A stretch of DNA of 64,000 nt from Cellulomonas sp. ES6 (GTDB lineage: Bacteria > Actinomycetota > Actinomycetes > Actinomycetales > Cellulomonadaceae), in NCBI RefSeq assembly GCF_030053835.1, contig NZ_CP125655.1:620001-684000 (forward strand), read 5' to 3'. Position 1 is the stretch's first letter. Each line of letters opens with the position of its first letter. Below are positions 37,613 to 57,529 of the stretch, one piece after another. Made by a program: the position numbers and the translations under genes. Below the pieces are notes generated by a model that saw only the letters and a program-made list of their open reading frames with translations, did not search any database and was not told the origin of the DNA.

Positions 37613-37828
37613 TCAGCCGGCGAGCCGCACCAGCGCGCCGAGCGCGGCCGTCGCGGCGACGCCGGCCACGGTCCAGGCGACCATGCTCCCCGCCACCCAG
37701 CCGGTCAGCCGGGCGCGGCTGCCGGGCGCCCACAGCGGCGCGGGCTCGTCGCGCAGGTGGTCCAGGGCGTCGCGGACCGCGCGCAGCGGGGTGGTGGTAC
37801 GGGCGGCGGTGGGCGTGACGGTGCTCAT
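37613..37828 (-). CDS. Small single-helix membrane protein
   Basis: 71 residues: Thr-rich start, a helix with RAVRDALDHLRDEPAPLWAPG, then one membrane span (WVAGSMVAWTVAGVAATAALGAL). A GAGGAG site precedes ATG 37828. Last gene of the stress-protein operon that starts at 41336. Function unknown. Confidence 0.7.
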   Translation of the reverse strand: MSTVTPTAARTTTPLRAVRDALDHLRDEPAPLWAPGSRARLTGWVAGSMVAWTVAGVAATAALGALVRLAG

Positions 37829-37881
37829 GGTGCTCTCCTCGTGGGTGGGCGGGTCGTGCAGGGGGCCGGGGTCACCGGCCG

Positions 37882-38916
37882 TCACCAGGATGCCCGCGCC
37901 CGGACGCCGCCGGGTGGGCTCTTCGGCCCGGGCAGCAGCACCGCGGCGCCCGCGAACCGCCCCGCGCGCAGGTCGGCGAGCGCCGCGTCGGCGCGGTCGA
38001 GCGGGTACGGCACGGCGTGCACGCGGACGCCGGCCCGGACGGCCTCCGCGAGGAACGCCCGGCCGTCCTCGCGAGTGTTCGCCTCGACCGACCGCAGGGT
38101 GCGCTCGTGGAACAGGTGGCGCCGGTAGTCGAGCGGCGGCACGTCGCTGAGGTGGATGCCGGCGACGGCCACCGTGCCGCCGGGCCGCACGGCCGCGAGC
38201 GCCACCGGCACGATCTCCCCGGCCGGTGCGAACACGATCGCGGCGTCGAGCGGCTCCGGCGGGGCGTCGGTCGCGCCGCCCGCGGACGCGCAGCCCAGCT
38301 CGAGCGCGAGGCGGCGGGCGTCCGCCCCGCGTGTCAGGACGTGCACCCGGGCGCCGCGGGCGAGCGCGACCTGGGCGGTCAGGTGCGCCGAGCCGCCGAA
38401 CCCGTACAGGCCGAGCACGCCGCCGGCGGGCAGCTCCGCGCGGGACAGGGCCCGGAACCCGATGATCCCGGCGCACAGCAGCGGCGCGTGCGTGGCCGGG
38501 TCGAGCTGCTCGGGCCAGTGGTAGGCGTAGGCGGCGGGCACGGTCGCGTACGGGGCGTACCCGCCGTCGGCGTCCCACCCGGTGTAGCGCGAGGCCCGGC
38601 AGAGGTTCTCGCGTCCGGCGCGGCAGTCGGCGCACGTGCCGCAGGTGTGCCGCAGCCAGGCGATGCCGGCCGCGTCCCCGGTCGCCCACCCGGAGACGTC
38701 GGGTGCGGCGTCCACGACGCGCCCCACGGCCTCGTGCCCGGGGACGACGGCCGGGCGGTGGGGCGGCAGGTCGCCGTCGAGGACGTGCAGGTCGGTGCGG
38801 CAGACGCCGCACGCCTCGACGCGCACGAGCAGCTCCCCCGGACCCGGCGCGGGCACCGGGCGCTCGACGCGTGCGAGCACGCCGGCCGGCCGCACCTCCC
38901 ACGCCAGCACGGTCAC
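37882..38916 (-). CDS. Zinc-dependent alcohol dehydrogenase (MDR family)
   Basis: 344 residues. Catalytic zinc ligands in [13 protein letters not shown] and PGHEAVG; structural zinc site with four cysteines in [16 protein letters not shown]; nucleotide motif [16 protein letters not shown] (GxGGxxH variant of AdhA-like enzymes). Interconverts alcohols and aldehydes with NAD(P)H. GTG 38916 overlaps the stop of the RelA-like gene. In the stress operon it may dispose of reductant as alcohol during oxygen limitation (inference). Confidence 0.9.
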
Positions 38917-39584
38917 TCCCCTCCCCGGGCGGCGACGTCCGCGCGGATCCGGTCGAGCTGGCGGTCGAGCCGGTCGGCACGGTCGGCCGCCGACCGCAGC
39001 CGCGCCCGCAGGTCCTCCGGGGCGTGGTCGTCCAGCGACCGCCGGACCGCGTCCCACGCGTCCATGACCGCCGTGAGGACCTGGACCTCCACGGTGCGGG
39101 TCCCGGGGCCGCCCGGCAGCGCGACCGGCACCGCGAGCACGGCGTGCAGGGCGCGGCAGCCGGACGCCGGCGGGTGGGCGAGGTGGTCGTCGACCGCCAG
39201 CAGGCCCGCGCCGGGCCCCGCGAGCAGCGCGCCGAGCACCGGCCGCAGGTCGCCGCGCGACGTGCACACGAGCCGGACCCCCGCGACGTCCGTGACCCCG
39301 CGCCGCAGCGCGCCCGGCGACGGCTCCGGGCCCCGGCGCAGGGCGGCGGCGACGATGCTCTCCGGGCTGCGCACCCACCACGCGACCCGCTCCACCGGGT
39401 CCGTGCCGTGCAGCTCGACGAGCCGGGCGCGGACCGCGGCGACGCGCCGGAGCGTCTCGTCCACGGCCAGCCGGGCGTCGGAGCGCAGCAGCGCGACCTC
39501 GCCCCGCAGGCGCAGCGAGGCGGCGGGGTCGGGCGCCGCCGGGCCCGTCGCGCGCTCCGCACCGGCGGACGCGGGGCGGTCCAC
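38913..39584 (-). CDS. RelA/SpoT-domain protein with degraded synthetase motifs
   Basis: 223 residues. Alignable in outline to small alarmone synthetases: [56 protein letters not shown] and [17 protein letters not shown]. Key positions differ from active RelQ/RelP: the expected K in the first block, YRS-LH changed to CRA-LH, and the arginine of QIRT changed to Leu. It may be inactive and regulatory, or bind another nucleotide. Starts 9 bases after the preceding stress-protein stop, behind GAGG, and is coupled to the alcohol dehydrogenase gene. Confidence 0.75.
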
Positions 39585-39592
39585 CGGGCACC

Positions 39593-40432
39593 TCAGCCGC
39601 GCTCGACCAGCACGGGGCACGGGGAGTGCAGGACCACCGCGTGGCTCGTCGAGCCGAGCAGCATCCGCGAGACGCCGTGCAGCCCGCGGCTGCCGACCAC
39701 CAGGAGCCGCGCGCTGTCGGCGGCGGCGAGCAGCGCGCCGGCCGGGTCGGTCTCGACGAGCCGCCGCCGGACCTCCAGGCCCGGGTGCTCCTCCTCGAGC
39801 CCCGCCGACGCCGCCTCCAGCACGGCGCGGGCGTGCGCGTGCGTCGCGGACCCGAGGTCCGGCGGCACGCGGACCGCCCACAGCACCGAGGCCTCCTGCC
39901 AGGCGTGCACGACGTCGAGCACGCCGCCGGTGCGCGCCGCCTCGACCGCCGCCGCGCGGACCGCGGCGGCGCTCTCGGCCGAGCCGTCGGTCCCGACCAC
40001 CACGCGGTCGGCGGCGGGGCGGGTCAGCGGGGGCACCACGGCGACGGGGCACTGCGCGCCCGCGACCACCTGGTAGGCCAGGGAGCCGGAGAACACGCGC
40101 TGGGTGGGTCCGAGCCGCCGCGTGCCGACCACGACCAGGGCGGCGCCCGCCGAGCGCTCCGTGAGGCTGCGCGCGGGGGTCTCGAGGTCGATCTCGGTGC
40201 GCGCCTTCAGGTCGGGGACCGCGGCGCACACGCGCTCCGCCTCCCGCTCGAGCATCTCCCGGACGCCCGCGCGCACGGCCTCCTCCCAGACCTCGCCGTA
40301 GCCGGCGCGCGGCCGGCCCACGGCGTGGACGAGCACCAGCTCGGCCCCGCGCGCCGCTGCCTGCTCCCCTGCCCAGTGCACCGCGCGCTCGCTCGACAGC
40401 GTGCCCGCGACCCCGACGACGACCTCGGTCAT
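39593..40432 (-). CDS. Tandem universal stress protein
   Basis: 279 residues, two Usp domains (about 1-140 and 146-279). The C-terminal domain has the full nucleotide motif in [20 protein letters not shown] (G-2x-G-9x-G-S/T). In the N-terminal domain the second glycine is replaced: [15 protein letters not shown]. Mycobacterial tandem Usps of the DosR regulon (Rv1996, Rv2005c, Rv2623) have this architecture and bind ATP. Second gene of the 41336-37613 operon. Confidence 0.93.
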
Positions 40433-40487: not shown

Positions 40488-41336
40488 TCAGTGCGACCGG
40501 ACGACCAGGACGGGGCACGGCGCGTGCAGCACCAGCGCGTGGCTCACCGAGCCGAGCAGCATCCGCGCCACGCCGCCGCGCCCGTGGCTGCCGACCACCA
40601 CGAGACGGGCGGTGGCGCAGGTCGCGAGCAGCGCGGCGGCGGCGTCCGCCTGCACGAGCGTGCGCTCGACCTCCAGGTCGGGGTACATCTCCCCGAGCCC
40701 CGCGGTGGACTCCCCGAGCACGACGCGCTCCTCGTCCTGCACCGCCGACGGCAGCTCGGGCGGCACCCAGCCCACGGACGCCAGCACCGCGGGCTCCTGC
40801 CAGGCGTGCACGACCTGGAGCGAGGCCCCGACCCGGTCGGCCTCCTGCGCGGCGGCGGCCACGGCGGCGACGCTGTCGCGGGAGCCGTCGACACCGACGA
40901 CGACGCGGTTCTCCGGGACGCGCAGGGACGGCGGGACGACCGCCACCGGGCAGTGCGAGCCCGCGACCACCTGGTACGCGAAGGAGCCGGAGTACACGCG
41001 GTGCGCGGCGGTGGTGCGGCGGGTGCCGACGACGAGCAGCCGCGCGGTGCCCGACCGGCGGGTCAGCGCCCGGCCGGGGGTCTCCAGGTCGATCTCCGTG
41101 CGCACCGTCAGGCCCGGGTGGTCCTGCGTGGCGACCTCGACCTCGTGCGCGAGCATCCGCTGCACGCCGGCCCCGACCGCGTCGTCCCACACGCTCTCGA
41201 ACCCGCTCACCGGCAGCCCCAGGGCGTGGACGACCACGAGCGTCGCCCCGCGGGCCCGCGCCGCGTCCGCGGCCCACCGGACCGCCTGCTCGCTCGACGG
41301 CGTGCCCGCGACGCCCACGACGACCTCGCCGCTCAT
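40488..41336 (-). CDS. Tandem universal stress protein
   Basis: 282 residues, two Usp domains. Domain two keeps [15 protein letters not shown]; domain one has GTRRTTAAHRVYSGS. Conserved family stretches [12 protein letters not shown] and PDLEVERTLVQADAAAALL. ATG 41336 gives [19 protein letters not shown], matching the starts of its paralogues. First gene of an operon of five with a DevR-like box 81 bp upstream. Confidence 0.93.
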   Translation of the reverse strand: MSGEVVVGVAGTPSSEQAVRWAADAARARGATLVVVHALGLPVSGFESVWDDAVGAGVQRMLAHEVEVATQDHPGLTVRTEIDLETPGRALTRRSGTARLLVVGTRRTTAAHRVYSGSFAYQVVAGSHCPVAVVPPSLRVPENRVVVGVDGSRDSVAAVAAAAQEADRVGASLQVVHAWQEPAVLASVGWVPPELPSAVQDEERVVLGESTAGLGEMYPDLEVERTLVQADAAAALLATCATARLVVVGSHGRGGVARMLLGSVSHALVLHAPCPVLVVRSH

Positions 41337-41416: not shown

Positions 41417-41432
41417 AGGGCCGAACGACCCC
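41417..41432 (-). promoter_or_regulatory. DevR/DosR-like box upstream of stress-protein operon
   Basis: Minus strand GGGGTCGTTCGGCCCT; shares GTTCGGCCCT exactly with boxes at 48614-48628 and 53756-53769. Lies 81 bp from the ATG at 41336. A -10 is not obvious here. Confidence 0.6.
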
Positions 41433-41463
41433 GCGCCCCGCCGCAGCCGACCCTCGGGCGCCG

Positions 41464-41709
41464 TCAGCCGTGCGAGGACAGCACGCGGGCCAGGCCCGTG
41501 CCGTGCACGCCGGGGTACTCGACCGAGATCACGTAGTCCCGGCCCCCGGCGCGACGCTGCGCCCACCCCTGCACCTCCAGCACGTCACGCGCCTCGAAGA
41601 CGCGGTGCACCTCGCCGGAGGGCCGGCCGTGCGCGACGAAGTCGACGCGGTAGACGGGCTGGTCGTCGTCCTCGGCGGCGTGCCGGGGATCCCGGGGAAG
41701 CGTGCGCAC
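41464..41709 (-). CDS. Small protein, paralogue of the 57260 gene
   Basis: 81 residues. PVYRVDFVAHGRPSGEVHRVFEARDVLEVQGWAQRRAGGRDYVISVEYPGVHGTGLARVL aligns along its length with the 89-residue protein encoded at 57260-57529. GTG 41709 follows AGAGAGGA. Downstream of a stress protein gene. No known domain recognised; a small alpha/beta fold is likely. Confidence 0.75.
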   Translation of the reverse strand: MRTLPRDPRHAAEDDDQPVYRVDFVAHGRPSGEVHRVFEARDVLEVQGWAQRRAGGRDYVISVEYPGVHGTGLARVLSSHG

Positions 41710-41752: not shown

Positions 41753-42085
41753 TCAGGGGCGGGCACCCGGCCGGCGCCGGCGCGCCAGCCCGCGCAGCCC
41801 GCGGCGCCCGTGGTCGAACTCCTCGACCGCCTCGAGCGCCTCGTCGAACGTCCGGAAGATCGTGCCGCGCCCCTCGATGAGCTGCGGCGGCGTCCCGGTC
41901 GCGGGCACGAACACCGCCTCCCACCGCAGGTCCCGGATGCAGCGGACCTCGTAGCAGCCGTCGGCCGTCCCCGCGACGTGCGAGCTGCCCACCAGGTGCC
42001 ACGCGAAGTCCGGTCCCGGACGCGGCCGGCCGACCCTCCCGCCGACCGGCGTGCCGTCCGCGGGCGTCATCGTCTGCTCGTGCAT
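41753..42085 (-). CDS. Conserved small protein of stress cluster
   Basis: 110 residues. Core [63 protein letters not shown] with a basic tail ([17 protein letters not shown]). ATG 42085 is preceded by GGGAGGA. In operon with the stress protein gene 34 bp upstream. Function not recognised. Confidence 0.75.
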
Positions 42086-42119: not shown

Positions 42120-42965
42120 TCAGCGCCGCACGACCAGCACCGGGCACGGCGAGTGCAGGACGACCGCGTGGCTCGTCGAGCCGAGCAGCATCCGCGCCAC
42201 CCCGTGCAGCCCGCGGCTGCCGACGACGAGCAGCCGTGCCGAGGCCGCGGCGGCCAGCAGCGCCGCGGCGGGCTGCGCGCGCACGAGCGTCCTCTCGATC
42301 TCCAGGTCGGGGAAGTCCTCGCCGAGCCCGGCGGACGCCTCGGCCAGCACGACCTCCTCCTCCTCGCGCGTGACGTCGGACAGGTCCGGCGGCAGCCACG
42401 TGGCGCTCATGATCACGGCGGGCTCCTGCCAGGCGTGCACCACCTCCAGCACGGCGCCGGCGCGGTCGGCCTGCTCGGCGCCCGCGCGCACGGCGGCGAC
42501 GCTGTCCGGCGAGCCGTCCGCACCGACCACGACGCGGTCCTCCGCCGGTCCGGTCACGGGCGGCACCACGGCGACGGAGCAGTGCGACCCGGCGACCACC
42601 TGGTACGCGAGCGAGCCCGTGAACACCCGCTCCGCGGCGGTCATGCGGCGGGTGCCGACGACGACCAGGCGCGCGGTCGCCGAGCGACGGGTCAGGCAGC
42701 GCGCGGGCGTGTCGGCGTCCACCTCCGTGCGGATCTTCAGCTCCGGCAGGTCGTGCCGCGCCCGGCCGGCCTCCCGGTCCAGCATCGCGGCGACCTCGGC
42801 CTCGAGCATCGCGTCCCACGCCGCCTCGAGCCCCGGCGAGGGGCGACCCGTGGCGTGCACGAGCACCAGCTCCGTCCGCCGCGCCCACGCCTCCTGCGCG
42901 CCCCACTGCACCGCGCGACGGCTCGACTGGGTGCCGTCCACCCCGACGACGACCTCGTGGCCCAT
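42120..42965 (-). CDS. Tandem universal stress protein
   Basis: 281 residues, two Usp domains; domain two has [18 protein letters not shown], domain one [15 protein letters not shown]. Starts [19 protein letters not shown]. Leads a three-gene operon (42965-41464). Its promoter has a DevR-like box and TAGCGT (43018-43060). Confidence 0.93.
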
Positions 42966-43017: not shown

Positions 43018-43060
43018 ACGCTAGGACGGGCCCCTGCGGGGCGCAGGTGCCGGTCGTCCC
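43018..43060 (-). promoter_or_regulatory. DevR-like box and -10 of a stress-protein operon
   Basis: Minus strand GGGACGACCGGCACCT (43060-43045), 21 bp, TAGCGT (43023-43018). The box sits over the -35 region, the position used by DosR at many mycobacterial promoters. Confidence 0.65.
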
Positions 43061-43088
43061 CTCCGCGGTCGCCGACCGTCCCGCGCGC

Positions 43089-44768
43089 TCAGGGCCCCGC
43101 CCCGGGCGGGCGGACCGGCCCCAGCGGCACGCTCCACACCAGCCGCGTCCCGCCCTCCGGGCGCTCCCGGATGCTGAGGCCGCCGCCCAGCTCCGCGGCC
43201 CGCGAGCGCATGTTGCGCAGGCCGTTCCCGGGGACGACGGCGCCCTCGGACAGCCCCGCGCCGTCGTCGTCCACCTGCAGGGTGAGGGCGTCCGGCCGGG
43301 CGGAGACCAGCACCTGCACGGTGTGCGCCTGGGCGTGCCGCGCGACGTTCGTCAGCGCCTCCGTGAGCACGGACGTCAGGTGCCCGGCGACCGGCTCCGG
43401 CACCACGGTGTCCAGCGGCCCCTCCATGCGGATGCGCGGCTCGCAGCCGAGCGCCGGGACCACCGCGCCGACCGTCTCCGTCACCCGCCCCCGCAGCCCC
43501 TCCGCCATCCCCGGGCGCTGCAGGGCGAAGATCGCCGACCGCAGGTCGCGGATGGCCTCGTCGAGCTGGCCGACCACCTCGTCCGCCGCGGGACGCAGCT
43601 CCTGCGGCAACCGGGGGCGCATGCTCTGGACGGTGAGGCCCGTGCCGAAGATGCGCTGGATGACGAGGTCGTGCAGGTCCCGGGCGATCCGCTCGCGGTC
43701 CCGGTAGACCGCCAGCGTGCCGCGCTGCACCTGGGACGTCGCGAGCTCCAGGGCCATCGCCGCCTGCCGGGCGAAGGCGTCCACCATCGCGCTGTCGTGC
43801 TCCCCGAGCGGCGACGCGCCCGGCCGGCGGGCGACGAGCAGCACGCCCAGCGCGTGCCCGCGCGCGGACATCGGCACGATCCGCGCCGGCCCGAGCACCG
43901 GCGCGCCCCGCAGCGTGGCGGCGCGCGGGTCGGTGCGGAAGTCCACGACCCCCTCCGGCGCCCCGGCGCGCAGCACCGCCCCGCTGAGCGACCGCCCGAC
44001 GGGCACGCGCGCCCCCCGCACCCCGCCGGCGGCGCGCCCGCTCGCGGCGTGCACGACCAGGTCGTCCCCGTCGGGCAGCAGCACGCACACCAGGTCCGCC
44101 CGCGCGAGCTCGCGGGCCCGGTCGCAGACCAGCGTCAGCGCCGCGGAGCGGGGCAGGCCGGCGAGCAGCTGCTGCTCGATCTCGACCGACGCCTCGAGCC
44201 ACTGCTGCCGGTGCCGGCCCGCGTGGTACTGCCGGGCGTTGTCGATCGCGACCCCGGCCGCCGCGGCGAGGGAGACCATGAGCTCCTCGTCGTCCGCGGT
44301 GAAGTCCGCGCCGCCCCGCTTGTGGGCCAGGTAGAGCACGCCGAAGACCCGCGAGCGCACGAGGACGGGCACCCCGAGGAACGTGTGCAGCCCGGGGTGC
44401 CGGGGCGGGTCCGCCGCGGCGGCCGGGTGCACCGCGAGGTCGTGCACCCGCAGCGGCCGGGGGTCGTCGACGAGCGCGCGCAGCACGCCGCGCCCGCCCG
44501 GCGGCTCCCACGCGCGCTGCCCGGGGACCTCGGGCACGCCGGCCGTGACCGAGGTGCCGATGCTCAGGTCGGGGCCCACCACGGCGAGCGCGCCGTAGCG
44601 GGCGTCGGTCAGCACGCACGCGGCCTGCGCGAGCCGGCCGAGCACGTCGCGCAGGTCGCCGTCGTCCTGCACCGCGACCATCGTGTCGATGAGCGCGCGG
44701 GCGTGCCGCCGTGCCACGGCGAGTCCGTCGGCCCTCGCCGACGCCGTCCGTCCGCCGACCGTCGACAT
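43089..44768 (-). CDS. devS: DevS/DosT-like two-GAF sensor histidine kinase
   Basis: 559 residues. GAF1 about 37-180, GAF2 about 200-345, HisKA_3 with phospho-acceptor His366 in [20 protein letters not shown], HATPase about 455-550 ([33 protein letters not shown]). GAF1 contains [13 protein letters not shown]; His124 or His128 lies where DevS/DosT carry the haem-ligating histidine, so gas or redox sensing is likely but not shown. No membrane helix. Divergent from the devR-like gene 69 bp away, its probable partner. Confidence 0.9.
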
Positions 44769-44837: not shown

Positions 44838-45494
44838 ATGGCCCAGAGCGGCGCCGCTGCACAGATCCGCGTGTTCGTCCTCGACGACCACGAGGTGGTG
44901 CGGCGCGGCCTGCGCGACCTGCTCGGCCAGGAGCCGGACATCGAGGTCGTCGGCGAGAGCGGGTCGGCCGCCGAGGCGACGCGGCGCATCCCCGCGCTGC
45001 GGCCCGACGTGGCCGTGCTCGACGCGCGGCTCCCCGACGGCAGCGGCATCGAGGTGTGCCGCCAGGTGCGGTCCCAGGACCCGTCGGTCGCCGCGCTGAT
45101 CCTCACGTCGTACGACGACGACGAGGCCCTGTTCGCCGCGATCCTCGCCGGCGCCGCGGGCTACGTGCTCAAGGAGATCGGCGGCGGCGAGCTGCTCGCC
45201 GCGATCCGGCACGTCGCGGCCGGGCACTCGATGCTCGACCCGGCGGTCACGGGACGCGTGCTCGCGCGGCTGCGGGCCGGCCCCCCGGAGCCCGACGAGC
45301 TGCACGACCTCACCGAGCAGGAGCGGCACATCCTGGCGTACATCGCCGAGGGCCTGACGAACCGCCAGATCGGCGAGCGCATGTACCTCGCGGAGAAGAC
45401 CGTGAAGAACTACGTCTCGCACGTGCTCGCGAAGCTCGGCGTCGAGCGGCGCACCCAGGCGGCCGTGCTCGCCGCGCGGCTGCTGCGCGACTGA
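44838..45494 (+). CDS. devR: DevR/DosR-type NarL-family response regulator
   Basis: 218 residues. Receiver with Asp16/Asp17, phospho-Asp62 ([11 protein letters not shown]), Thr90 and Lys112; LuxR-type HTH about 150-215. The recognition segment [13 protein letters not shown], and [11 protein letters not shown] after it, are nearly identical to Mycobacterium DosR as I remember it, including the Lys-Lys-Asn residues that contact DNA. Similarity extends through the receiver ([10 protein letters not shown]). It should therefore recognise DosR-like boxes, several of which lie in this island. Confidence 0.93.
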
Positions 45495-45507: not shown

Positions 45508-46050
45508 TCAGACGAACAGCAGCTGCGCGCCCGCCGTCTTCTCGACGAACTCCGCCGCGCTGATGATCCCCTCCAGGTCCTCGCGCAGGTCCGACTCGTC
45601 GAGCGCGAACATGTCGGCCGACATCCGGCAGCCCCACAGGTGCCCGCCGGCCGCGACGATCTGGTCGAGCAGCTCCGGGACGTCCGGGATCCCGAGGTCG
45701 CGCAGCTGGCGGCGCATCATGCGGGTCGTCACCGCCGAGACCCCGGGGGCCGGGGCCACCGCCTGGGGCAGCCGCAGGTCCCGCAGCGGCAGGTGCATCG
45801 CGGTGTTGGCGACGGGCGAGAACCGCAGGTCGTGCATCCGCGAGCGCACCACCATGTCGAAGCCCCAGAACGTGAAGAACAGGTGCGTCTCCACGCCCTC
45901 GCCGAGGGCGGCGTTGGCGATGATCAGCCCCGGGTACGCCATGTCGAGGTTGCCCTTGGAGCAGATGATGGCGATCGTCCGGTCGTCGCCGGCGTCGTCG
46001 CCGAAGTCGGGGACGATCGCGGGCCGGGGTGCGGCCGTCGTGTCGGTCAC
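45508..46050 (-). CDS. DsrE2-like sulfur carrier protein
   Basis: 180 residues. IAIICSKGNLDMAYPGLIIANAALGEGVETHLFFTFWGFDMV and GGHLWGCRMSADMF are typical of the DsrE/DsrF-like DsrE2 group; Cys141 is the expected persulfide-carrying residue, Cys30 a second. DsrE2 proteins pass sulfane sulfur to TusA or related carriers. GTG 46050 follows GAGGAGG. Encoded 9 bp after tusE and downstream of the SQR-like gene. Confidence 0.87.
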   Translation of the reverse strand: MTDTTAAPRPAIVPDFGDDAGDDRTIAIICSKGNLDMAYPGLIIANAALGEGVETHLFFTFWGFDMVVRSRMHDLRFSPVANTAMHLPLRDLRLPQAVAPAPGVSAVTTRMMRRQLRDLGIPDVPELLDQIVAAGGHLWGCRMSADMFALDESDLREDLEGIISAAEFVEKTAGAQLLFV

Positions 46051-46059: not shown

Positions 46060-46374
46060 TCAGACGCAGCCGTGCGGCTTGGGCAGTCCCGCGACGTAGG
46101 CCATCTTGCGGCCGGGCTTGCGGGGGAAGAGCGCGAACTGCTCCTTGACCGGGACGCCGCCGACCACGTCGACCCGGCGCGTCGTGGGGGTCTGGCCCCG
46201 CTCCGCGTAGTCGGCGCGCAGGAAGCGCAGCACCTCCCAGTGCCGGTCGGTCAGGGTGATCCCGATCTGCTCCGCGAGCGCCTTCGCGAGGTCCTCGTCC
46301 CACTCCTCGGGGCGGCTGAGGAACCCCTCGTCGTCGACGTGCACCGCGCGCTCGCGGATCTGCACCACGGGCAT
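46060..46374 (-). CDS. tusE: TusE/DsrC-family sulfur relay protein
   Basis: 104 residues. DEEGFLSRPEEWDEDLAKALAEQIGITLTDRHWEVLRFLRADY and the C-terminal arm AGLPKPHGCV are diagnostic. Only the penultimate cysteine (Cys103) is present; the second cysteine of dissimilatory DsrC, eleven residues earlier, is Ala. It therefore fits a persulfide carrier like TusE rather than a DsrAB partner. AGGAGG precedes ATG 46374. Sits between SQR-like and DsrE2-like genes. Confidence 0.92.
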   Translation of the reverse strand: MPVVQIRERAVHVDDEGFLSRPEEWDEDLAKALAEQIGITLTDRHWEVLRFLRADYAERGQTPTTRRVDVVGGVPVKEQFALFPRKPGRKMAYVAGLPKPHGCV

Positions 46375-46387: not shown

Positions 46388-47632
46388 TCAGGCCGCGGCA
46401 CGGGTCGCGGCGGGTTCGCGCCGCGGGGCGCGGCTGGGGATCGGGACCGGGCGTCCGTGCAGCAGCACGTTCCAGTACAGGCGCTGCGTCGCGGCCTTCG
46501 CCCAGTGGTTCGCCCGCGTCTCGGCGAGCAGGCTCAGCGGCCCGACCACCGGCAGCGGGTACCGGCCGGGCAGCGGCTCGGCGTCGTAGCCGAAGTCGAG
46601 CAGCAGGGCGCGGCCCCGGCCCGACTCGACGAAGCAGTTCGCGTGGCCGTCGTACAGCCGGGTCATGGGCCGCCCGCGGTCGTAGGACACGAGGTTGTCG
46701 GCGAACACGTCGGCCTCGAAGTGCGCCACCGAGCCGGCCTTGGACGTCGGCACGTCCGTGGCGTCCCCGACCGCGAACACCCCCGGGTGGGCCCGCGACA
46801 TCAGCGTGCCGGGGTCCACCGGCACGTCCTGGAGCTCGTCCCCCATCCCGGAGCGCGCCACGAAGTCGGCCCCGAGGTTGACGGGCACCGTGACGAGCAG
46901 GTCGAACGGGACCTCCCGGTCGTCGACGGACACGAGGCGCCCGTCGTCGACCCGGTCGACGACGAAGTCCGTCCGCACCCGGACGCCGCGCGCGTCGAGC
47001 ATGCCGCCGAGCCGCTCGCGGGCGACCGGCTGGGTGAACGCGCCGTCCAGCGGCGTGACGTACGTCAGCTCCGTGCCGGCCCGCAGGCCTCCGCGGCGCA
47101 GCGCGTCGTCGAGCAGGAAGGTGAACTCCAGGGGCGCGACCGGGCACTTGATGGGCATCTCCGTGACGTGCACGACGACCCGCCCGCCGAGCCACCGCTC
47201 GAGCCGGCGGTGCAGCGCGACGGCGCCGTCGGGCGTGTAGAACTCGTGCACCCGCCGCCGCCACTGGTCCCCGGCCATGCCCGGGGTCTGGTCGGGCCGC
47301 GGCGACGTCCCGCTCGCGACGACCAGGTAGTCGTACGGCAGGACGCGGCCGTCCTCCAGGTGCACCCGGCCGCGGGCCGGGTCGACGCCCTCGACCTCGC
47401 CGAGCACCAGCTCGACGCCCGGCTCCAGGTACCGGCGCCGGGACCGGACGAGCTGGTCGGGCGTCGCCGCCCCGAACGGCACGGTGAGCAGGCCCGGCTG
47501 GTAGAGGTGCCGGTCGTCGCGGTCCACCACGGTCAGGCGCCAGAAGTCGCGCTCCACCCGCAGCCGGTGCAGCAGCCGGTTGGCGACCATCGTCCCGGCG
47601 GTGCCGCCGCCCAGGATCAGCAGGTGCTTCAT
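46388..47632 (-). CDS. SQR-like FAD-dependent oxidoreductase
   Basis: 414 residues. FAD motif LLILGGGTAGTMVANRL at the N-terminus, YDYLVVASGTSPRP, and the second FAD motif GVFAVGDATDVPTSKAG near 305. Cys163 in EMPIKCPVAPLEF occupies the place of an SQR redox cysteine. The C-terminus (GPLSLLAETRANHWAKAATQRLYWNVLLHGR) could bind the membrane. Probably oxidises sulfide to persulfide with quinone, feeding the TusE and DsrE2 proteins encoded next to it. It has few cysteines, so another quinone-linked role is possible. Confidence 0.82.
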   Translation of the reverse strand: MKHLLILGGGTAGTMVANRLLHRLRVERDFWRLTVVDRDDRHLYQPGLLTVPFGAATPDQLVRSRRRYLEPGVELVLGEVEGVDPARGRVHLEDGRVLPYDYLVVASGTSPRPDQTPGMAGDQWRRRVHEFYTPDGAVALHRRLERWLGGRVVVHVTEMPIKCPVAPLEFTFLLDDALRRGGLRAGTELTYVTPLDGAFTQPVARERLGGMLDARGVRVRTDFVVDRVDDGRLVSVDDREVPFDLLVTVPVNLGADFVARSGMGDELQDVPVDPGTLMSRAHPGVFAVGDATDVPTSKAGSVAHFEADVFADNLVSYDRGRPMTRLYDGHANCFVESGRGRALLLDFGYDAEPLPGRYPLPVVGPLSLLAETRANHWAKAATQRLYWNVLLHGRPVPIPSRAPRREPAATRAAA

Positions 47633-48811: not shown

Positions 48812-49096
48812 ATGACGCACACCTGGGACGTGCGGATCGACCTGTTCGAGGCCTCCGACGTCCCCGCCGCGGATCACACCACGACCACCGCCCACGCGAT
48901 CCTCAGCACCTCCGCGGGCACCCGCATGAGCGGGACCGGCCGGGCGCGTCGCCGTCCGGGCGAGACCGACGTGCCGGAGATCGGCGACGAGCTCGCCGCG
49001 GCCCGGGCGCTGCGGGAGCTCGCGGACCGGCTGCTGGCGGCCTCGTCCGCCGACATCTCGGAGATCGAGCACCGCGAGGTGCGCCTGGCTCGGTGA
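48812..49096 (+). CDS. DUF1876 protein (Rv1738-like)
   Basis: 94 residues. WDVRIDLFEASD, TTTTAHAILSTSAGTRMSGTGRARRRPG, VPEIGDELAAARALRELADRLL: the dsRBD-like fold of PF08962. Mycobacterial Rv1738 is strongly DosR-induced and resembles ribosome hibernation factors. First gene of an operon with an HTH protein, flavodoxin and P-type ATPase. GGAGGG lies upstream of the ATG. Confidence 0.9.
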   Translation: MTHTWDVRIDLFEASDVPAADHTTTTAHAILSTSAGTRMSGTGRARRRPGETDVPEIGDELAAARALRELADRLLAASSADISEIEHREVRLAR

Positions 49097-49120: not shown

Positions 49121-49483
49121 GTGAGCCAGGACCTGTCGCCGGCACCGGGTGCCGGGATCGCGCCGGGGGTGCCGGCGCTGAGCGAGCGCGAGCGCGTCGT
49201 GCTGCGGGAGCTCCTCAGCGCGCAGACGCTCGACGAGGTGGCCGGGCGGCTGTACGTGTCGCGCAACACCGTGAAGTCGCAGGTGCTCAGCATCCACCGC
49301 AAGCTCGGCGTCACGTGCCGCGCGGAGGCCGTCGCGTGGGCCCGCGCGCACCTGCCCGACGTCGCGGGGTCCGACCGCGCCGGCGGGGGCACGGCCGGCG
49401 GGGGCGTCGCGGGCGTCGCGGCACCCCGCGGGGCGTCCGTCCCCGCCCGCCCGCTCGGGGCGCCCCGCCGCCCGGGGGCGTGA
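49121..49483 (+). CDS. Stand-alone LuxR-type HTH protein
   Basis: 120 residues. HTH about 20-85: LSERERVVLRELLSAQTLDEVAGRLYVSRNTVKSQVLSIHRKLG. No receiver or ligand domain; the tail is Gly/Ala/Pro-rich and disordered. It may regulate the surrounding genes or antagonise DevR at shared sites; that is inference. 24 bp after the DUF1876 gene, 4 bp before the flavodoxin gene. Confidence 0.8.
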   Translation: MSQDLSPAPGAGIAPGVPALSERERVVLRELLSAQTLDEVAGRLYVSRNTVKSQVLSIHRKLGVTCRAEAVAWARAHLPDVAGSDRAGGGTAGGGVAGVAAPRGASVPARPLGAPRRPGA

Positions 49484-49487: not shown

Positions 49488-50023
49488 GTGTCCGCGCTGG
49501 TGGTGTACGAGTCGATGTTCGGCAGCACGCGCGACGTCGCGCACGCCGTCGCCGACGGGCTGCGCGAGACGGTCCCCGTGCGGGTGGTGGAGGTCGGGGC
49601 CCTGCTCGCGGAGCCCGGCGGCACCGCGGTCCCCGAGGAGGTCACCCTGCTGGTGGTCGGCGGCCCGACCCACGCCTTCGGCATGAGCCGCGAGTCGACC
49701 CGGGCGTCCGCGGCCCGGGAGGCGCGGACGGGGGCCGAGGCGCTCGTGTCCCCGCACGCCGGCATCCGGGAGTGGCTCGACGTCGTCCGCATGCCCGCGC
49801 ACACGCTCCTCGTCGCGACGTTCGACACGAAGCTGCGCCGGCCGAACCTGCCGGGCTCGGCCGCCCGGTCCGCCGAGCGCGCGCTGCGGCACCGCGGCGC
49901 GGTCCCCGTCGTGGAGGCCCGGTCGTTCGAGGTGCTCGGCATGGCCGACGGCCTGGCGGAGGGCGAGCTGGCGGCCGCCCAGGAGTGGGGGCGCCTGCTG
50001 GCCGGGACGCTGCCCGCGGCCCG

Positions 50024-50027
<4 letters not shown>
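49488..50027 (+). CDS. Flavodoxin family protein
   Basis: 179 residues. FMN phosphate loop YESMFGSTRDVAHAVADGL, then LLVVGGPTHAFGMSR, with the Trp-containing loop replaced by a longer segment. Electron carrier or flavin oxidoreductase in the cytoplasm. Its stop overlaps the ATPase ATG (ATGA). Confidence 0.87.
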
Positions 50028-52765
<2,738 letters not shown>

Positions 52766-52779: not shown

Positions 52780-53607
52780 TCAGGCCCGGACCACGAGCAC
52801 CGGCCGCCGGGCGTGCAGGATCACGGCGTGGCTCGTCGAGCCGACGAGCAGCCGCGAGACGCCGTGCAGGCCCCGGCTGCCGACCACGACCAGCCGCGCG
52901 TGCGAGCCCGCGGCGAGCAGAGCGGTCGCGGGCTGCGCCTTCACGAGCGTGCGCTCGACCTCCAGGTCCGGGAACCGGTCCGCGAGCCCGGCCGTGGCGT
53001 GCGCCAGGACCGCGGCCTCGCTCTCGCGCAGCCGCGCCGTCATGTCCGGCGGCACGTACCCCTGCGCGAGCAGGAGCGCCGGCTCCTCCCAGGCGTGCAC
53101 CACCTGCAGCACCGCGCCGTGACGCTCGGCCTCCTGCGCCCCGGCGGCCACGGCGGCCACGCTGTCCGGCGAGCCGTCGACCCCGACGACCACGCGGTTG
53201 TCCGCCTCCACCGGCACCGCCGGGACGACGGCGACGGAGCAGCTCGCGGCCGCGGCGATCTCGTACGACCGCGACCCGGAGAACACCCGCTGCGCCGGCG
53301 TCAGCCGGCGGGTGCCGACCACGAGCAGCCGGGCGGAGCCCGAGCGCCGCACGAGGCAGCGGGCGGGCCGGTCGGCCTCCACCTCCGTGCGGATCTTCAC
53401 GGACGGGCTGACCTCGCGTGCGTGCGCGGCGGCCCGGTCGAGCACGTCGCGGGCGGCGTCCGCGAGCGCGTCGTCCCACTCGACGTCACCGAGCGCGTGC
53501 ACCAGCAGCAGCTCCGCGCCGCGGGCCGCCGCGGCCTCCGCGCCCCAGCTCACGGCACCCTCGCTGGAGACGGTGCCCTCCACCCCGACGACGACCTCGT
53601 TGCTCAT
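52780..53607 (-). CDS. Tandem universal stress protein
   Basis: 275 residues, two Usp domains; domain two [18 protein letters not shown], domain one GTRRLTPAQRVFSGS. Starts MSNEVVVGVEGTVSSEGAV. Single gene convergent with the P-type ATPase; own promoter at 53652-53695. Confidence 0.92.
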   Translation of the reverse strand: MSNEVVVGVEGTVSSEGAVSWGAEAAAARGAELLLVHALGDVEWDDALADAARDVLDRAAAHAREVSPSVKIRTEVEADRPARCLVRRSGSARLLVVGTRRLTPAQRVFSGSRSYEIAAAASCSVAVVPAVPVEADNRVVVGVDGSPDSVAAVAAGAQEAERHGAVLQVVHAWEEPALLLAQGYVPPDMTARLRESEAAVLAHATAGLADRFPDLEVERTLVKAQPATALLAAGSHARLVVVGSRGLHGVSRLLVGSTSHAVILHARRPVLVVRA

Positions 53608-53651: not shown

Positions 53652-53695
53652 ACGCTACGGAGGCCGGGTGCGCGCCGGGCAGGGGCCGACGGGCC
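53652..53695 (-). promoter_or_regulatory. DevR-like box and -10 of a stress-protein gene
   Basis: Minus strand GGCCCGTCGGCCCCT (53695-53681), 23 bp, TAGCGT (53657-53652). Confidence 0.62.
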
Positions 53696-53755
53696 GTCGC
53701 GCGCGGGACTTCGGACCCCGCCCGCCCCCCGGTGCCCGTCCGTCCCGCCCCGCCC

Positions 53756-53797
53756 GGCCGTTCGGCCCTTCCGGTGGCGGCGGACGCCCGGTGGCAT
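53756..53797 (+). promoter_or_regulatory. DevR-like box and -10 of the DUF1876-fusion gene
   Basis: GGCCGTTCGGCCCT (53756-53769), 22 bp, TGGCAT (53792-53797). A further related site, GGGACTTCGGACCC, lies at 53705-53718. Confidence 0.62.
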
Positions 53798-53828
53798 GGC
53801 GGTGCAGCGCACACACCGGGAGGGCACC

Positions 53829-54521
53829 GTGGACAGCACCCCGTTCGCCGCCGTGTCCTGGCAGTCGCGCGGGGCCCTGGTCCGCCTCGAGCACGAGCAC
53901 CCCGGCCGGGCGTACCTCGCGGTGCGGTCCGCGCCGACGCCGCGGGGCGACGCCGCGGCCCGGGACCTGGTCTGCGCGGCGGTGGTGCGGGCGCGGGCGG
54001 AGCGCATCAGCCACCTGGTGACCACCCTCGACGCGTCCCGCCCGGTCTGCGGCGTGGTGCTCACCGCGCTGCGGGAGCAGGTCGGCACGCACGTGCGGGA
54101 GCTGGAGTGCCACCGCAGCGGCGCGAGCGTGCTCGTGTCCGTCGAGCTCCTGCCGCCGGCCGCGGACCAGGCGGCCGGCGCGTCGCGCGACGCCCGGCTC
54201 CCCCCGGTCTCGCTCGCGTGGCACGTGCGGGTCTACCTGGCGGCGGCGCCCGACGTGCCGTCGCGCGGCCACGGCACGACGACGGCGCACGCCGTGCTCA
54301 CGGTGAGCGACGCGAAGCGCCTCACGGGGACGGGACGCGCGCACCGGCACCCGCACGACGTCGACGTGCGGGAGGTCGGCGAGGAGCTGGCCACGGCCCG
54401 CGCGCTCGCCGAGCTCGCGGACCGGCTGCTCGCCGACGCCCGGGAGCAGGCCGGCGCCGCGAGCGCCGGCGGGCCCGCGGGAAGCAGCGGCACGGCGGGC
54501 ACCGGCCGCGCGCCCCGCTGA
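53829..54521 (+). CDS. Two-domain protein with C-terminal DUF1876
   Basis: 230 residues. The C-terminal half (about 122-212) is DUF1876: WHVRVYLAAAPD, TTTAHAVLTVSDAKRLTGTGRAHRHPHD, VREVGEELATARALAELADRLL. The N-terminal half (AAVSWQSRGALVRLEHEHPGRAYLAVRS, ...VCGVVLTALREQVGTHVRELECHRSG) is not recognised. GTG 53829 chosen because GGGAGGG lies 5 bases upstream; ATG 53796 would overlap the -10. Possibly a ribosome- or RNA-linked stasis factor like Rv1738. Confidence 0.8.
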   Translation: MDSTPFAAVSWQSRGALVRLEHEHPGRAYLAVRSAPTPRGDAAARDLVCAAVVRARAERISHLVTTLDASRPVCGVVLTALREQVGTHVRELECHRSGASVLVSVELLPPAADQAAGASRDARLPPVSLAWHVRVYLAAAPDVPSRGHGTTTAHAVLTVSDAKRLTGTGRAHRHPHDVDVREVGEELATARALAELADRLLADAREQAGAASAGGPAGSSGTAGTGRAPR

Positions 54522-54634: not shown

Positions 54635-54913
54635 ATGCCCGCCACCACCGACCCCGAGGCCGCCCGCCGCATCCTCAACCGCCTGCGCCGCGCGCGCGGA
54701 CAGCTCAACGCCGTCATCGACGCCGTCGAGAACGGCGGGTCGTGCCGCGACGTCGTCACGCAGCTCGCCGCCGTCTCCAGCGCGCTCGACCGCGCCGGCT
54801 ACACGGTGATCGCCACCGCCATGAAGGAGTGCCTCGTCGAGCCCGGCTCCGTGCGCACCGAGGACGGCCTCACGCCCGACGAGCTCGAGAAGCTGTTCCT
54901 CACCCTCGCCTGA
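54635..54913 (+). CDS. CsoR/RcnR-family repressor, CstR-like cysteine pattern
   Basis: 92 residues, all-alpha DUF156 fold: RILNRLRRARGQLNAVIDAVENGGSCRDVVTQLAAVSSALDRAGYTVIATAMKECL. Cys37 and Cys66 match the two cysteines of CsoR, but the metal-binding histidine four residues before the second cysteine is Ala62. A Cys-x-Cys site without the histidine is the mark of persulfide sensors such as CstR. Copper sensing is therefore unlikely. An operator lies in its own promoter. Confidence 0.85.
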   Translation: MPATTDPEAARRILNRLRRARGQLNAVIDAVENGGSCRDVVTQLAAVSSALDRAGYTVIATAMKECLVEPGSVRTEDGLTPDELEKLFLTLA

Positions 54914-54963: not shown

Positions 54964-55725
54964 TCAGTGCGTGGTCCAGCCGCCGTCGATCACCAGCTCC
55001 GCGCCGGTCACGAACTTCGACTCGTCGCTGGCCAGGTACAGGTAGCCGTACGCGATGTCCATCGGCTCCCCGGCGTGGGGCGGCAGCGGCGTGCGGCCCT
55101 GGTCGAACGCCGCCATGGCCTCCAGCGACTCGATCCCGGCCGCCCGGGCCATCCCGGTGAACACCGCGCCCGGGTGCACCGAGTTCACGCGGATGCCGTC
55201 GCCGGCGAACCACTGCGCCGCGTGCTTCGTCATCGACCGCACCGCGCCCTTCGACGCGCTGTACGCCGCGCCGTGCCCGTCCGCCTCGCCGCCGATCAGC
55301 CCCGCGATCGACGAGCAGTTCACGATGGACCCGCCGCCGCGCGCCTGCATCTGCGGGATCACCGCCTTCATGCCGAGCCAGACGCCCATGGCGTTGACCG
55401 ACAGGATCCGGTCCCAGTCCTCGCGCTCGGTCTCGAGCACGCCCTTGGCGAGGAACACGCCCGCGTTGTTGACCAGCACGTCCACGCCGCCGTACGCGCG
55501 GACGGCCGTGTCCACGACGTGCGCCCACTGATCCGCCCGCACGACGTCGAGCGGTACCGCCGTCAGGTCGCCCGCGAGCCGGCCCACCTGCGCCTCCAGC
55601 ACGTCCGCGACGACGTCGGCGGCCACCACCCGCGCCCCCTCCCGGGCGAACAGCTCCGCCGCGGCCAGCCCCATGCCGCTCGCCGCTCCCGTGATGACGG
55701 CGACCTTCCCGCTCAACCGGTCCAT
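54964..55725 (-). CDS. Short-chain dehydrogenase/reductase
   Basis: 253 residues, classical SDR. Cofactor motif TGAASGMGLAA, DVLVNNAGVF, catalytic Ser in NCSSIAGL, YSASKGA (Tyr and Lys of YxxxK), GIRVNSVHPGAVFT. Resembles 3-alpha/20-beta-hydroxysteroid and 3-oxoacyl reductases. Asp after the second strand (AADVV) suggests NAD preference. Substrate unknown. Divergent from a stress protein gene. Confidence 0.9.
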   Translation of the reverse strand: MDRLSGKVAVITGAASGMGLAAAELFAREGARVVAADVVADVLEAQVGRLAGDLTAVPLDVVRADQWAHVVDTAVRAYGGVDVLVNNAGVFLAKGVLETEREDWDRILSVNAMGVWLGMKAVIPQMQARGGGSIVNCSSIAGLIGGEADGHGAAYSASKGAVRSMTKHAAQWFAGDGIRVNSVHPGAVFTGMARAAGIESLEAMAAFDQGRTPLPPHAGEPMDIAYGYLYLASDESKFVTGAELVIDGGWTTH

Positions 55726-55882
55726 CGTGGTCCTCTCCCTCCCGCGAGCGCCGCACCGTGCGGCACGGGGCCGCGGCCCCGTGCTCGCACCGTGGCAGGG
55801 ACGGGTGGGCGACCGGCACGGGCGGACGTCACGAGACCGCGGGTCCGACGTCCCGGCACCGGGCCCATCGGCTCGGGGCGAC

Positions 55883-55926
55883 GTGCCGACCGGCCCCTGA
55901 CCGGGCGCACCCCGCCGCCGTAGCGT
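55883..55926 (+). promoter_or_regulatory. DevR-like box and -10 of a stress-protein gene
   Basis: GTGCCGACCGGCCCCT (55883-55898; 13 of 16 positions shared with the 43045-43060 box), 22 bp, TAGCGT (55921-55926). Confidence 0.65.
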
Positions 55927-55953: not shown

Positions 55954-56751
55954 ATGGGTCACGAGGTCGTCGTCGGCGTGGAGGGGACGCTCTCCAGCAG
56001 GCGTGCCGTGCACTGGGCCGCCGAGGCGGCGTGGGCGCGCCGCACGGAGCTGCTGCTGGTGCACGCCGTCGGCAAGCCGGCACCCGGGCAGGAGGCCGCC
56101 TGGTCGCAGGCCGTGGACGGCGGGGTCCACGAGATGCTCCGCCGCGAGGCCGACCGGGTGCGCCGCGCCGAGCCGGGCCTGACCGTCCGGGCCGAGGTGG
56201 ACCTCGACACACCCGCCCGGGCGCTCACGCAGCGTTCGCGCACCGCGCAGCTGGTGGTCGTGGGCACCCGCCGCACCACCGCCGCGCAGCGCGTGTTCTC
56301 CGGCTCGCTGTCCTACCAGGTCGCCGCCGGGGCCTCCTGCTCGGTCGCCGTGGTCCCGCCGCTGACGGGGCACGCCGAGAACCGCGTCGTCGTCGGCCTC
56401 GACCACTCGCCCGACGCCCAGGCCGCCGTCCGCGCCGGTGCCCGCGAGGCCGACCGCGTCGGTGCCCGCCTGGAGCTGCTGCACGCCTGGCAGCCGCCCG
56501 GCGAGGCCGGGGACCGGGCGCTGGTCGACGGTGCGGCGGACGACCTCGCCGACGACTTCCCGGGGCTCGCCGTGGACCGGCGGCTCGTGCAGTCCCACCC
56601 CGCGATCGCGCTGCTCACGGCCGCCGCCGGCGCGCGGCTGCTGGTCGTCGGCAGCCGCGGGACGGACGGCGTCCCGCGGATCCCGCTGGGCGCCACCAGC
56701 CACGCGCTGGTCCTGCACGCCCCCTGCCCGGTGCTCGTGGTCCGCACCTGA
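55954..56751 (+). CDS. Tandem universal stress protein, shortened second domain
   Basis: 265 residues. Starts [19 protein letters not shown]; domain one GTRRTTAAQRVFSGS; domain two GSRGTDGVPRIPLGATSH. It is 10-17 residues shorter than its four paralogues because the segment after HAWQPPGEAGD is trimmed. Monocistronic. Confidence 0.92.
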   Translation: MGHEVVVGVEGTLSSRRAVHWAAEAAWARRTELLLVHAVGKPAPGQEAAWSQAVDGGVHEMLRREADRVRRAEPGLTVRAEVDLDTPARALTQRSRTAQLVVVGTRRTTAAQRVFSGSLSYQVAAGASCSVAVVPPLTGHAENRVVVGLDHSPDAQAAVRAGAREADRVGARLELLHAWQPPGEAGDRALVDGAADDLADDFPGLAVDRRLVQSHPAIALLTAAAGARLLVVGSRGTDGVPRIPLGATSHALVLHAPCPVLVVRT

Positions 56752-56787
56752 CCCGGCGCGGTCGAGCTGCCGGTCGCGACCTGCCGG

Positions 56788-57195
56788 TCACGCGCGGTGC
56801 GCGCCCCAGCCGTGCCAGCGCTCGACCTCCACCACCGCGTCCCACCGGGGGCTCTCGCGGTCCGGGTACGGGTGCCCGGTGTAGTGCCGCGACAGCCGGT
56901 CGATGCCCGAGCGGTCGACGTCCTCCGTCAGCTCCACGACCCGCCCCACCAGGGTGACGTGCGTGTACCAGTCGTCGCCGTCGAGCACGGTCAGCGTCAC
57001 GCGGGGGTCGCGACGCAGGTGCCGCAGCCGCACCCGGGAGCCGTCCAGGTTGAGCAGCACCCGGCCGTCCTCCCGCCAGAGGTACCAGGTGGCGGCGGAC
57101 ACGGGCGTGCCGTCGGACCGGAGCGTCGCCATCACGGCGGGGTTCGGGCGCCGCAGCATGGCGACGGCGTCGGGGGGCAGGGGCGGACGGGCCAC
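56788..57195 (-). CDS. PPOX-class flavin or F420-dependent oxidoreductase
   Basis: 135 residues, split-barrel fold: AMLRRPNPAVMATLRSDGTPVSAATWYLWREDGRVLLNLDGSRVRLRHLRRDPRVTLTVLDGDDWYTHVTLVGRVVEL. The pattern matches the TIGR03618/F420-binding subgroup. GTG 57195 is preferred to GTG 57204 because GGAGGAGG then has correct spacing. Convergent with the stress protein gene. Cofactor is inferred. Confidence 0.82.
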   Translation of the reverse strand: MARPPLPPDAVAMLRRPNPAVMATLRSDGTPVSAATWYLWREDGRVLLNLDGSRVRLRHLRRDPRVTLTVLDGDDWYTHVTLVGRVVELTEDVDRSGIDRLSRHYTGHPYPDRESPRWDAVVEVERWHGWGAHRA

Positions 57196-57259
57196 GACGG
57201 GCACCTCCTCCGGGGTGAGGGGACGCGCACCAGTCTGCCGGGCGGCGCGCCGCCCCGCC

Positions 57260-57529
57260 TCACCAGCCCGAGACGCGCCGCAGCCCGGTCGCCGGGGTGA
57301 GCTGGACGAGAGCGGTGCCGCCCGCGTCCTCGACCTCGAGGCTCACGGCCGCCGCCCGGCCCTGCTGGTGGCGCGCCACCCACTCGAGCACCTCGAGCAC
57401 GTCGCCCGCGCCCACGAGCCGCCAGCGCTCCGCCGGCCGGCCCGCCGAGGTGTGCAGGTCCACGACGTACACGGGGTCGTCGACCTGCACCCACGAGTAC
57501 CGCGCACCCGCGTCCCGCACCGCCTGCAT
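57260..57529 (-). CDS. Small protein, paralogue of the 41464 gene
   Basis: 89 residues: DDPVYVVDLHTSAGRPAERWRLVGAGDVLEVLEWVARHQQGRAAAVSLEVEDAGGTALVQLTP aligns with the 81-residue protein encoded at 41464-41709 (PVY-VD, DVLEV, -W, G-AL). Both occur in the stress island. No known domain recognised. Confidence 0.72.
   Translation of the reverse strand: MQAVRDAGARYSWVQVDDPVYVVDLHTSAGRPAERWRLVGAGDVLEVLEWVARHQQGRAAAVSLEVEDAGGTALVQLTPATGLRRVSGW

Follow-up and report, generated by a model that had tools for sequence, protein, structure and literature searches.

What system is encoded where a two-component pair of the mycobacterial dormancy type is surrounded by stress-protein genes, and to which signal would it respond? 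This question is raised by a 64,000-nucleotide stretch of Cellulomonas sp. ES6 (positions 620001-684000 of a one-contig actinobacterial chromosome of 4.12 Mb), the whole of which is referred to here as the window. Within it, a block of about 19 kb, spanning 37613 to about 56780, holds the genes of a sensor kinase (DevS) and a response regulator (DevR) together with genes for universal stress proteins (Usps), redox enzymes, an ion pump and a sulfide-oxidation cassette. The reading favored here, to which we give a probability of roughly three in four, is that the pair is a member of the DevRS/DosRST/OsdKR family whose core regulon has been gathered beside it and which operates by the mechanism proposed below.

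Sequence comparison identifies DevR, which is composed of a receiver and a GerE domain (Pfam), as a regulator of the DosR/DevR/OsdR type. When DevR was compared with all solved chains, Mycobacterium tuberculosis DosR (3c3w) was the best match at 261 bits, exceeding the next solved relative, VraR (147 bits), by 114 bits, with NarL at 122 bits; these values come from the best 60 of 207 matches. The recognition stretch EKTVKNYVS, from which an earlier note on this DNA had assigned the regulator to the DosR type, is identical in DevR and DosR, and the ratio of nonsynonymous to synonymous substitution rates (dN/dS) against the sister species G071 is 0.04. A quick tree placed DevR with DosR and apart from genus paralogues of about 48% identity, albeit with long branches. 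DevR does not rank with NarL, the outcome that the note had named as decisive against its view; a NarL or VraR identity was set aside on the scores of 122 and 147 bits versus 261 bits for DosR.

The kinase gene diverges from devR across a gap of 69 bp, and its product has the GAF-GAF-HisKA_3-HATPase arrangement expected from the earlier description of a DevS-like two-GAF kinase. The best solved matches of its first GAF domain (GAF-A) are DosT and DevS. The proximal haem ligand of DevS is His149, in the numbering of that protein. Alignment with DosT and DevS places His124 of the window kinase at the haem-ligand position and Tyr146 at the distal position, occupied in DevS by Tyr171 (Y171; PMC9062744). 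The position of DevS Glu87 is taken by Ala62 in the window kinase and by Gly in DosT. Of 92 DevR loci tried, 68 yielded a GAF-A match and 65 covered all three haem-pocket positions; in these 65 related kinases, the haem His was kept in 63, the distal Tyr in 61, and Gly stood at the Glu87 position in 62. The retained His and Tyr suggest that GAF-A of the window kinase binds haem. Its start codon, the ATG at 44768, was chosen by hand, the gene caller having favored 44717; a longer frame (43089-45422) overlaps devR because antisense frames stay open at high GC content.

Joint control of the block units by DevR, inferred in the earlier note, is likely, because DosR/OsdR-type boxes are predicted upstream of most of them. 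The boxes were scored with a matrix derived from 18 of 25 different Streptomyces coelicolor OsdR sites (Table 1 of PMC5069765) and from no site of the present genome. Intergenic positions scoring at least 9 numbered 6 of 1576 in the block, 2 of 3500 in the window outside it and 1 of 24470 in a background of twelve 20-kb stretches of the same genome (block versus background, Fisher p 3e-7, neighboring positions not being independent). When the matrix columns were permuted in mirrored fashion 300 times, no permutation reached the observed number of boxes, whichever of three matched thresholds was used. The boxes are conserved in G071, where five of the six still score at least 9 and only 3 of 96 box positions have changed, the flanking sequence being 82-91% identical. 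In their distances from the genes they are similar to the highest-ranking S. coelicolor sites (−81, −100, −99 and −102), although the values in that table span +36 to −391. Elsewhere in the genome, a strict-palindrome scan found a box at −91 of the PPDK gene, and the S. coelicolor PPDK gene SCO0208 is an OsdR target with a predicted site at −102 (PMC5069765). Judging from gene spacing, Usp2 probably heads a unit Usp2-Usp1-RelA/SpoT-like-alcohol dehydrogenase-small protein, and Usp3 probably heads one with the small genes at 41753 and 41464.

Two further box-like sites were observed outside the block. A flavodoxin gene at 18388-18897 is preceded, about 91 bp upstream, by a box at 18981-18996 (score 14.2 with a first matrix that contained three more sites), and a homologue of this flavodoxin gene lies near DevS in G057 (L120). 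A box-like palindrome also occurs at −32 of aceE, encoding pyruvate dehydrogenase (L266:2519-2534; G000:C1:712518), a possible second target at the pyruvate node.

The data presented above have led us to propose a model whereby the kinase, as a haem-GAF protein, would be turned on when its haem loses O2 or takes another small ligand, and would then phosphorylate DevR. The regulator would bind the 16-bp palindromic boxes located 64-88 bp before four Usp genes, 34 bp before a DUF1876 gene and 75 bp before the DoxX-like gene, so that the stress proteins, the redox enzymes and the ion pump would be induced in oxygen shortage. The cassette encoding sulfide:quinone reductase (SQR), TusE and DsrE would have been taken into the block in this lineage; from their families, SQR would pass sulfide electrons to quinone while TusE and DsrE would carry sulfane sulfur.

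Several results weigh against this model. Between devR and devS the matrix scan detected no site with a score of at least 7, which leaves autoregulation unsupported. The box at 48614, the sole one for the sulfur unit, falls to 6.3 in G071, in an intergenic region of which two other stretches are unchanged there. The strict palindrome was not enriched genome-wide (11 sites versus 14 for the reversed control) and was rejected as a genome-wide regulon detector; of its ten sites outside the window, only that of PPDK matches a target in the Streptomyces table, and three are intragenic. Box density at score 10 was 0.112 per kb around DevR in the named loci and 0.117 per kb in loci of the same order or genus, versus 0.067 per kb at SQR loci, so that the density around DevR in relatives stands modestly above that of other actinobacterial loci and lends the model weak support. 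Finally, boxes in the 400 bp preceding SQR did not favor DevR-positive over DevR-negative loci (one-sided p 0.98, 13 versus 12 loci), and a general rule that DevR controls SQR was rejected.

The window has a GC content of 70-81% in 2-kb steps. Since high GC opens many false frames, genes were called with our own codon model, and some starts were picked by eye. A minus-strand left arm runs from the first small gene to the kinase; beyond devR, the minus-strand genes from DsrE to the DoxX-like protein are followed by a plus-strand series ending with the P-type ATPase, and the right end alternates in strand from Usp4 to Usp5. Of the 26 genes tested between 37613 and 57529, 25 have an orthologue in G071, where the block is collinear, and dN/dS is at most 0.39 in 24 of these 25, the exception being the RelA/SpoT-like gene. 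The orthologue search found no match in G071 for the small gene at 37613-37885, which is present in G058, a genome of the same species. In G080, a genome of the genus in which the block marker (41753-42085) is absent, DNA homology starts again at 56785; the PPOX gene and the small gene after it therefore lie outside the block. The earlier note had described a single 20-kb block with its own regulators, and such a cluster exists, with its right edge at about 56780 and with these last two genes belonging to the genus backbone.

Most of the families named in that note were recovered as well. Both DUF1876 (PF08962) proteins, one of them carrying the domain at its C-terminus, are present, as are the DUF1918 protein, which we take to be of the Rv0569 type, and the cation P-type ATPase, for which a CtpF-like nature may be inferred. 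Families DUF1876, DUF1918 and P-type ATPase occur among the DosR targets of M. tuberculosis. Five two-domain Usps were found where five in tandem had been claimed, three of them lying at 39593-42965 and the others standing apart. The flavodoxin, Zn alcohol dehydrogenase and PPOX genes are all real, the flavodoxin falling just under the Pfam cut-off and PPOX belonging to the backbone. The note had overlooked the RelA/SpoT-like gene, the SQR-TusE-DsrE cassette, the genes for the DoxX-like, LuxR-type helix-turn-helix, CsoR-family and short-chain dehydrogenase (SDR) proteins, and the small genes at 41464-41709 and 41753-42085.

Table. Genes and predicted DevR boxes of the block and its right flank (window coordinates; distances in bp from the gene named; box scores from the OsdR-site matrix)
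Coordinates	Strand	Feature	Evidence
37613..37885	-	Small protein, no Pfam family	
37882..38916	-	Zn alcohol dehydrogenase	TIGR02822, 500 bits (cut-off 283.5)
38913..39584	-	RelA/SpoT-like small alarmone synthetase homologue, degenerate motifs	dN/dS 0.54
39593..40432	-	Usp1, two Usp domains, ATP-type motif GX2GX9GS	Pfam; motif
40488..41336	-	Usp2	Pfam; box at −88
41417..41432		Box AGGGCCGAACGACCCC, −88 of Usp2	Score 13.8; G071 one change, 12.1
41464..41709	-	Small protein, no known family	dN/dS 0.13
41753..42085	-	Small protein, no known family, block marker	No Pfam; 3/60 genus genomes
42120..42965	-	Usp3	Pfam; box at −88
43046..43061		Box GGTGCCGGTCGTCCCC, −88 of Usp3	Score 10.4; G071 one change, 16.0
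43089..44768	-	DevS/DosT/OsdK-type sensor kinase, 559 aa, GAF-GAF-HisKA_3-HATPase	Pfam; PDB GAF-A matches
44838..45494	+	DevR/DosR/OsdR-type response regulator, 218 aa	PDB best match DosR 3c3w; trees; dN/dS
45508..46050	-	DsrE_2 family sulfur carrier	Pfam
46060..46374	-	TusE/DsrC family, sole kept Cys penultimate	TIGR03342; alignment
46388..47632	-	Type III SQR	NF049943, 537.8 bits (cut-off 525)
47684..47893	-	DUF1918	Pfam
47965..48546	-	DoxX-like membrane protein, weak	Pfam E 4
48614..48629		Box, weakest case, −75 of DoxX-like and −190 of DUF1876 (48812-49096)	Score 11.7; G071 6.3
48812..49096	+	DUF1876 (Rv2632c-like)	Pfam
49121..49483	+	LuxR-type helix-turn-helix, stand-alone, no receiver domain	Pfam
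49488..50027	+	Flavodoxin	Pfam, 24.6 bits (cut-off 25)
50024..52765	+	Cation P-type ATPase, type II by best sub-cut-off NCBIfam matches	Pfam; NCBIfam
52780..53607	-	Usp4	Pfam; box at −82
53682..53697		Box, −82 of Usp4	Score 11.0; identical in G071
53754..53769		Box, −154 of Usp4 and −34 of DUF1876 fusion gene	Score 13.2; identical in G071
53796..54521	+	C-terminal DUF1876 domain protein	Pfam
54635..54913	+	CsoR-family repressor, Cys-Ala-Cys	Pfam; alignments
54964..55725	-	SDR	Pfam
55882..55897		Box, −64 of Usp5	Score 9.3; identical in G071
55954..56751	+	Usp5, exact ATP motif absent	Pfam; box at −64
56788..57204		PPOX	Genus backbone, outside block
57260..57529		Small gene	Genus backbone, outside block

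Several of these genes merit further description. The RelA/SpoT-like protein shows clear homology to YwaC, but the motifs DY...K..GY.SLH, E.Q.RT and EH (named from the alignment), intact in YwaC and in 12 aligned homologues, are altered in both the window and G071. A working (p)ppGpp synthetase was set aside, as the substrate motifs are changed in both species, and the gene may possibly encode a pseudo-synthetase that evolves faster than its neighbors. A PADLOC search with four odd block proteins returned only a weak match (E 1e-5), that of the RelA/SpoT-like one. The backbone gene at 57260-57529 matches the small gene at 41464-41709 at 39%. A DoxX-like gene is frequent near DevR, being found at 15 of 80 named loci and at 8 of 12 loci of the same order or genus. 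Copper-sensing CsoR proteins are recognized by their Cys-His-Cys ligands; the CsoR-family protein of the block has Ala where M. tuberculosis CsoR (2hh7) has the copper His. Among solved relatives, the His is present in 6ahx, 5fmn and 2hh7, while 7mq1 and 7mq3, deposited as csoR and presumably a persulfide sensor, have Asn or Ala at this position.

The class of regulon described here is already known, and what is new is chiefly the sulfide cassette and the divergent regulator pair. For Streptomyces, a report of 2016 showed that OsdR functions as an orthologue of DevR and that its core regulon is clustered (OsdKR, PMC5069765). As in the window, the S. coelicolor pair OsdK-OsdR (SCO0203/SCO0204) is of the DevS/DevR type and lies, in the region SCO0167-SCO0219, amid several Usp genes, a Zn alcohol dehydrogenase gene and a PPOX gene; its boxes are of the AGGGCCGATCGGCCCT type, many of them about 80-100 bp before their targets, and PPDK is again a target (PMC5069765). 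The same report describes differences: osdR and osdK form an operon with an upstream box, whereas devR and devS diverge with no box detected between them, and the nitrate reductase and transporter genes nearby are a feature of S. coelicolor. The predicted OsdR targets in its Table 1 include no SQR-TusE-DsrE, DUF1918 or P-type ATPase, although a flavoprotein oxidoreductase, "CoA disulfide reductase" SCO6039, is listed (PMC5069765). The M. tuberculosis DosS/DosT-DosR system likewise combines a regulator with a haem-GAF kinase, Usp targets and a related box, but its DosR genes are reported in nine genome blocks (PMC5309233) rather than one.

Of 396 genomes from the phylum, 61, the present one included, contain DevR relatives at E 1e-68 or better. 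In relatives, as here, DevR lies near DevS, Usp, DoxX-like, flavodoxin, CtpF-like or alcohol dehydrogenase genes. The 80 named DevR loci, which are the best of a longer list and are in some cases ended by contig edges, had as neighbors a DevS relative in 59, a Usp in 39, the ATPase in 10 and an alcohol dehydrogenase in 9; rarer were flavodoxin (6), DUF1918 (3) and DUF1876 (3). The full gene mix of the block was found in no examined locus other than G058 and G071. A DosR-type module outside mycobacteria, as proposed in the earlier note, is thus real, but its clustering is not new, given the published Streptomyces system (PMC5069765) and the 61 genomes with relatives.

The sulfide cassette adjoins the regulator, the ends of dsrE and devR being convergent and 13 bp apart. 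The two Cys of SQR (163 and 333) align with Cys of SQOR, and we take them to be its two catalytic cysteines. SQR, TusE and DsrE keep their order, all on a single strand, at 25 of 25 loci, with an SQR-TusE gap of roughly 0.7 kb in some; these loci represent 24 of 26 foreign SQR-positive genomes (G235 and G298 were left out) plus the named locus L095, which had come through DevR. Actinobacterial cassettes thus share genes, order and strand with that of the window, but unlike it they are seldom near DevR-type genes. Six of the 24 loci found through SQR have scattered alcohol dehydrogenase, SDR, CsoR or 37% regulator matches. At one SQR locus (L150, in G175), the SQR match reads through an in-frame TGA, and the name of the family model designates a selenoprotein subtype. 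A literature search on sulfide quinone oxidoreductase with DosR turned up only H2S in M. tuberculosis, and one on SQR, TusE and DsrE in actinobacteria turned up, at the level of titles, only other subjects; the colon spelling (sulfide:quinone) was not searchable in either.

This arrangement invites a different explanation, in which the dormancy switch has turned into one for sulfide. The kinase would mainly report reactive sulfur, H2S acting on the oxidised (ferric) DevS haem; DevR would induce SQR-TusE-DsrE along with the Usps and other stress genes; and the Cys-Ala-Cys CsoR-family repressor would provide a second layer as a persulfide-type sensor. Adjacent to devR are an SQR with both aligned Cys, a TusE with its terminal Cys and DsrE, and the CsoR-family protein lacks the copper His. 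In M. tuberculosis, DosS is reported to bind H2S at its ferric haem with induction of the regulon (PMC9062744), and H2S to induce both the Dos and the copper regulons (PMC6987094). SQR and DevR also co-occur more often than expected, in 13 of 27 SQR genomes versus 48 of 369 others (about 4 expected; odds ratio 6.2, p 3e-5, uncorrected for kinship), and strong boxes precede SQR in the DevR-positive genomes G260 (14.9) and G266 (12.0). Yet DevR-negative G318 scores 11.2, in keeping with the indifference of SQR-upstream boxes to DevR across the 25 loci, and the sole box for the sulfur unit is weak in G071. Cassette parts lie near DevR in only 2 of the 80 named loci, a single one (L179) of the 24 loci found through SQR has Usp, ATPase and DUF1876 neighbors, and 13 of the 16 genomes with SQR among 60 of the genus are without the block marker. 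We consider a sulfide switch doubtful on this balance. Far less probable still is a NarL/VraR-like pair of other function that came to lie among stress genes by chance: LuxR-family regulators are numerous, with many candidates per genome, and the genome has Usp domains at several sites (18 matches, 10 within the block), but DosR outscores VraR and NarL by a wide margin, the kinase retains the haem-pocket residues, DosR/OsdR boxes precede neighboring genes, and the genus paralogues form another clade.

A further alternative concerns origin, namely that the block is an island moved from a Nocardioides- or Micromonospora-like donor. The marker is present in only 3 of 60 genus genomes (the present one, G058 and G071), and no match to block genes was found in the 40 kb of G080 examined. 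The ten best named matches of DevR, chiefly from Nocardioidaceae and Micromonosporaceae, are 73-77% identical to it, versus 59-62% for the five other such DevR of the genus. In a careful tree of 47 DevR rows, a 98/97 branch parts the window DevR from four of these five. On the DosR side of this branch are M. tuberculosis DosR with a same-order row, four of six Streptomycetaceae, the four genus DevR and four further rows, and on the window side are Micromonosporaceae, Nocardioidaceae, Frankia, two Streptomycetaceae and same-order rows. Against a distant donor, three same-order genomes have DevR 71-73% identical, nearly as close; an approximately unbiased (AU) test with 94 rows did not reject a single clade for the window DevR and the five others of the genus (p 0.26); and the free tree was slightly outdone by one that united the window DevR with two same-order rows. 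Block GC falls inside the span seen elsewhere in the window, no tRNA gene was found in the window and no integrase among those window proteins scanned with Pfam, and for the remaining block genes no set of equal closeness turned up in the named loci. We regard such a donor as possible but rather unlikely. The earlier note's transferable module is in line with the patchy marker beside a shared backbone, one of the two other carriers being of the same species, but descent within the genus is not rejected; firm horizontal transfer was not established despite the 98/97 branch, and transfer of the block is, from these comparisons, plausible. A review notes that DosR genes are conserved in environmental bacteria and may have spread horizontally (PMC5309233). 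Two observations stand beside this history: 5 of 35 other genus genomes (L124-L128) have a differently ordered cluster, DevR-flavodoxin-DevS-DoxX-like, and G071 carries at G071:C1:1681888-1682015 a 128-bp copy of glnA1 3'-end sequence, about 95 kb from glnA1, which hints at insertion beside glnA1.

As a member of the DevRS/DosRST/OsdKR family, the block provides a compact non-mycobacterial model of DosR-type regulation, in which 19 kb take in the sensor and the regulator as well as their likely targets and the probable binding sites. A sulfide cassette here stands beside a member of the kinase family whose M. tuberculosis representative reportedly senses H2S (PMC9062744). A sulfide switch, if true, would give a genetic reason for the response of DosS-type kinases to H2S, and the position of the cassette beside a haem kinase makes H2S as a natural signal testable without working on M. 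tuberculosis.

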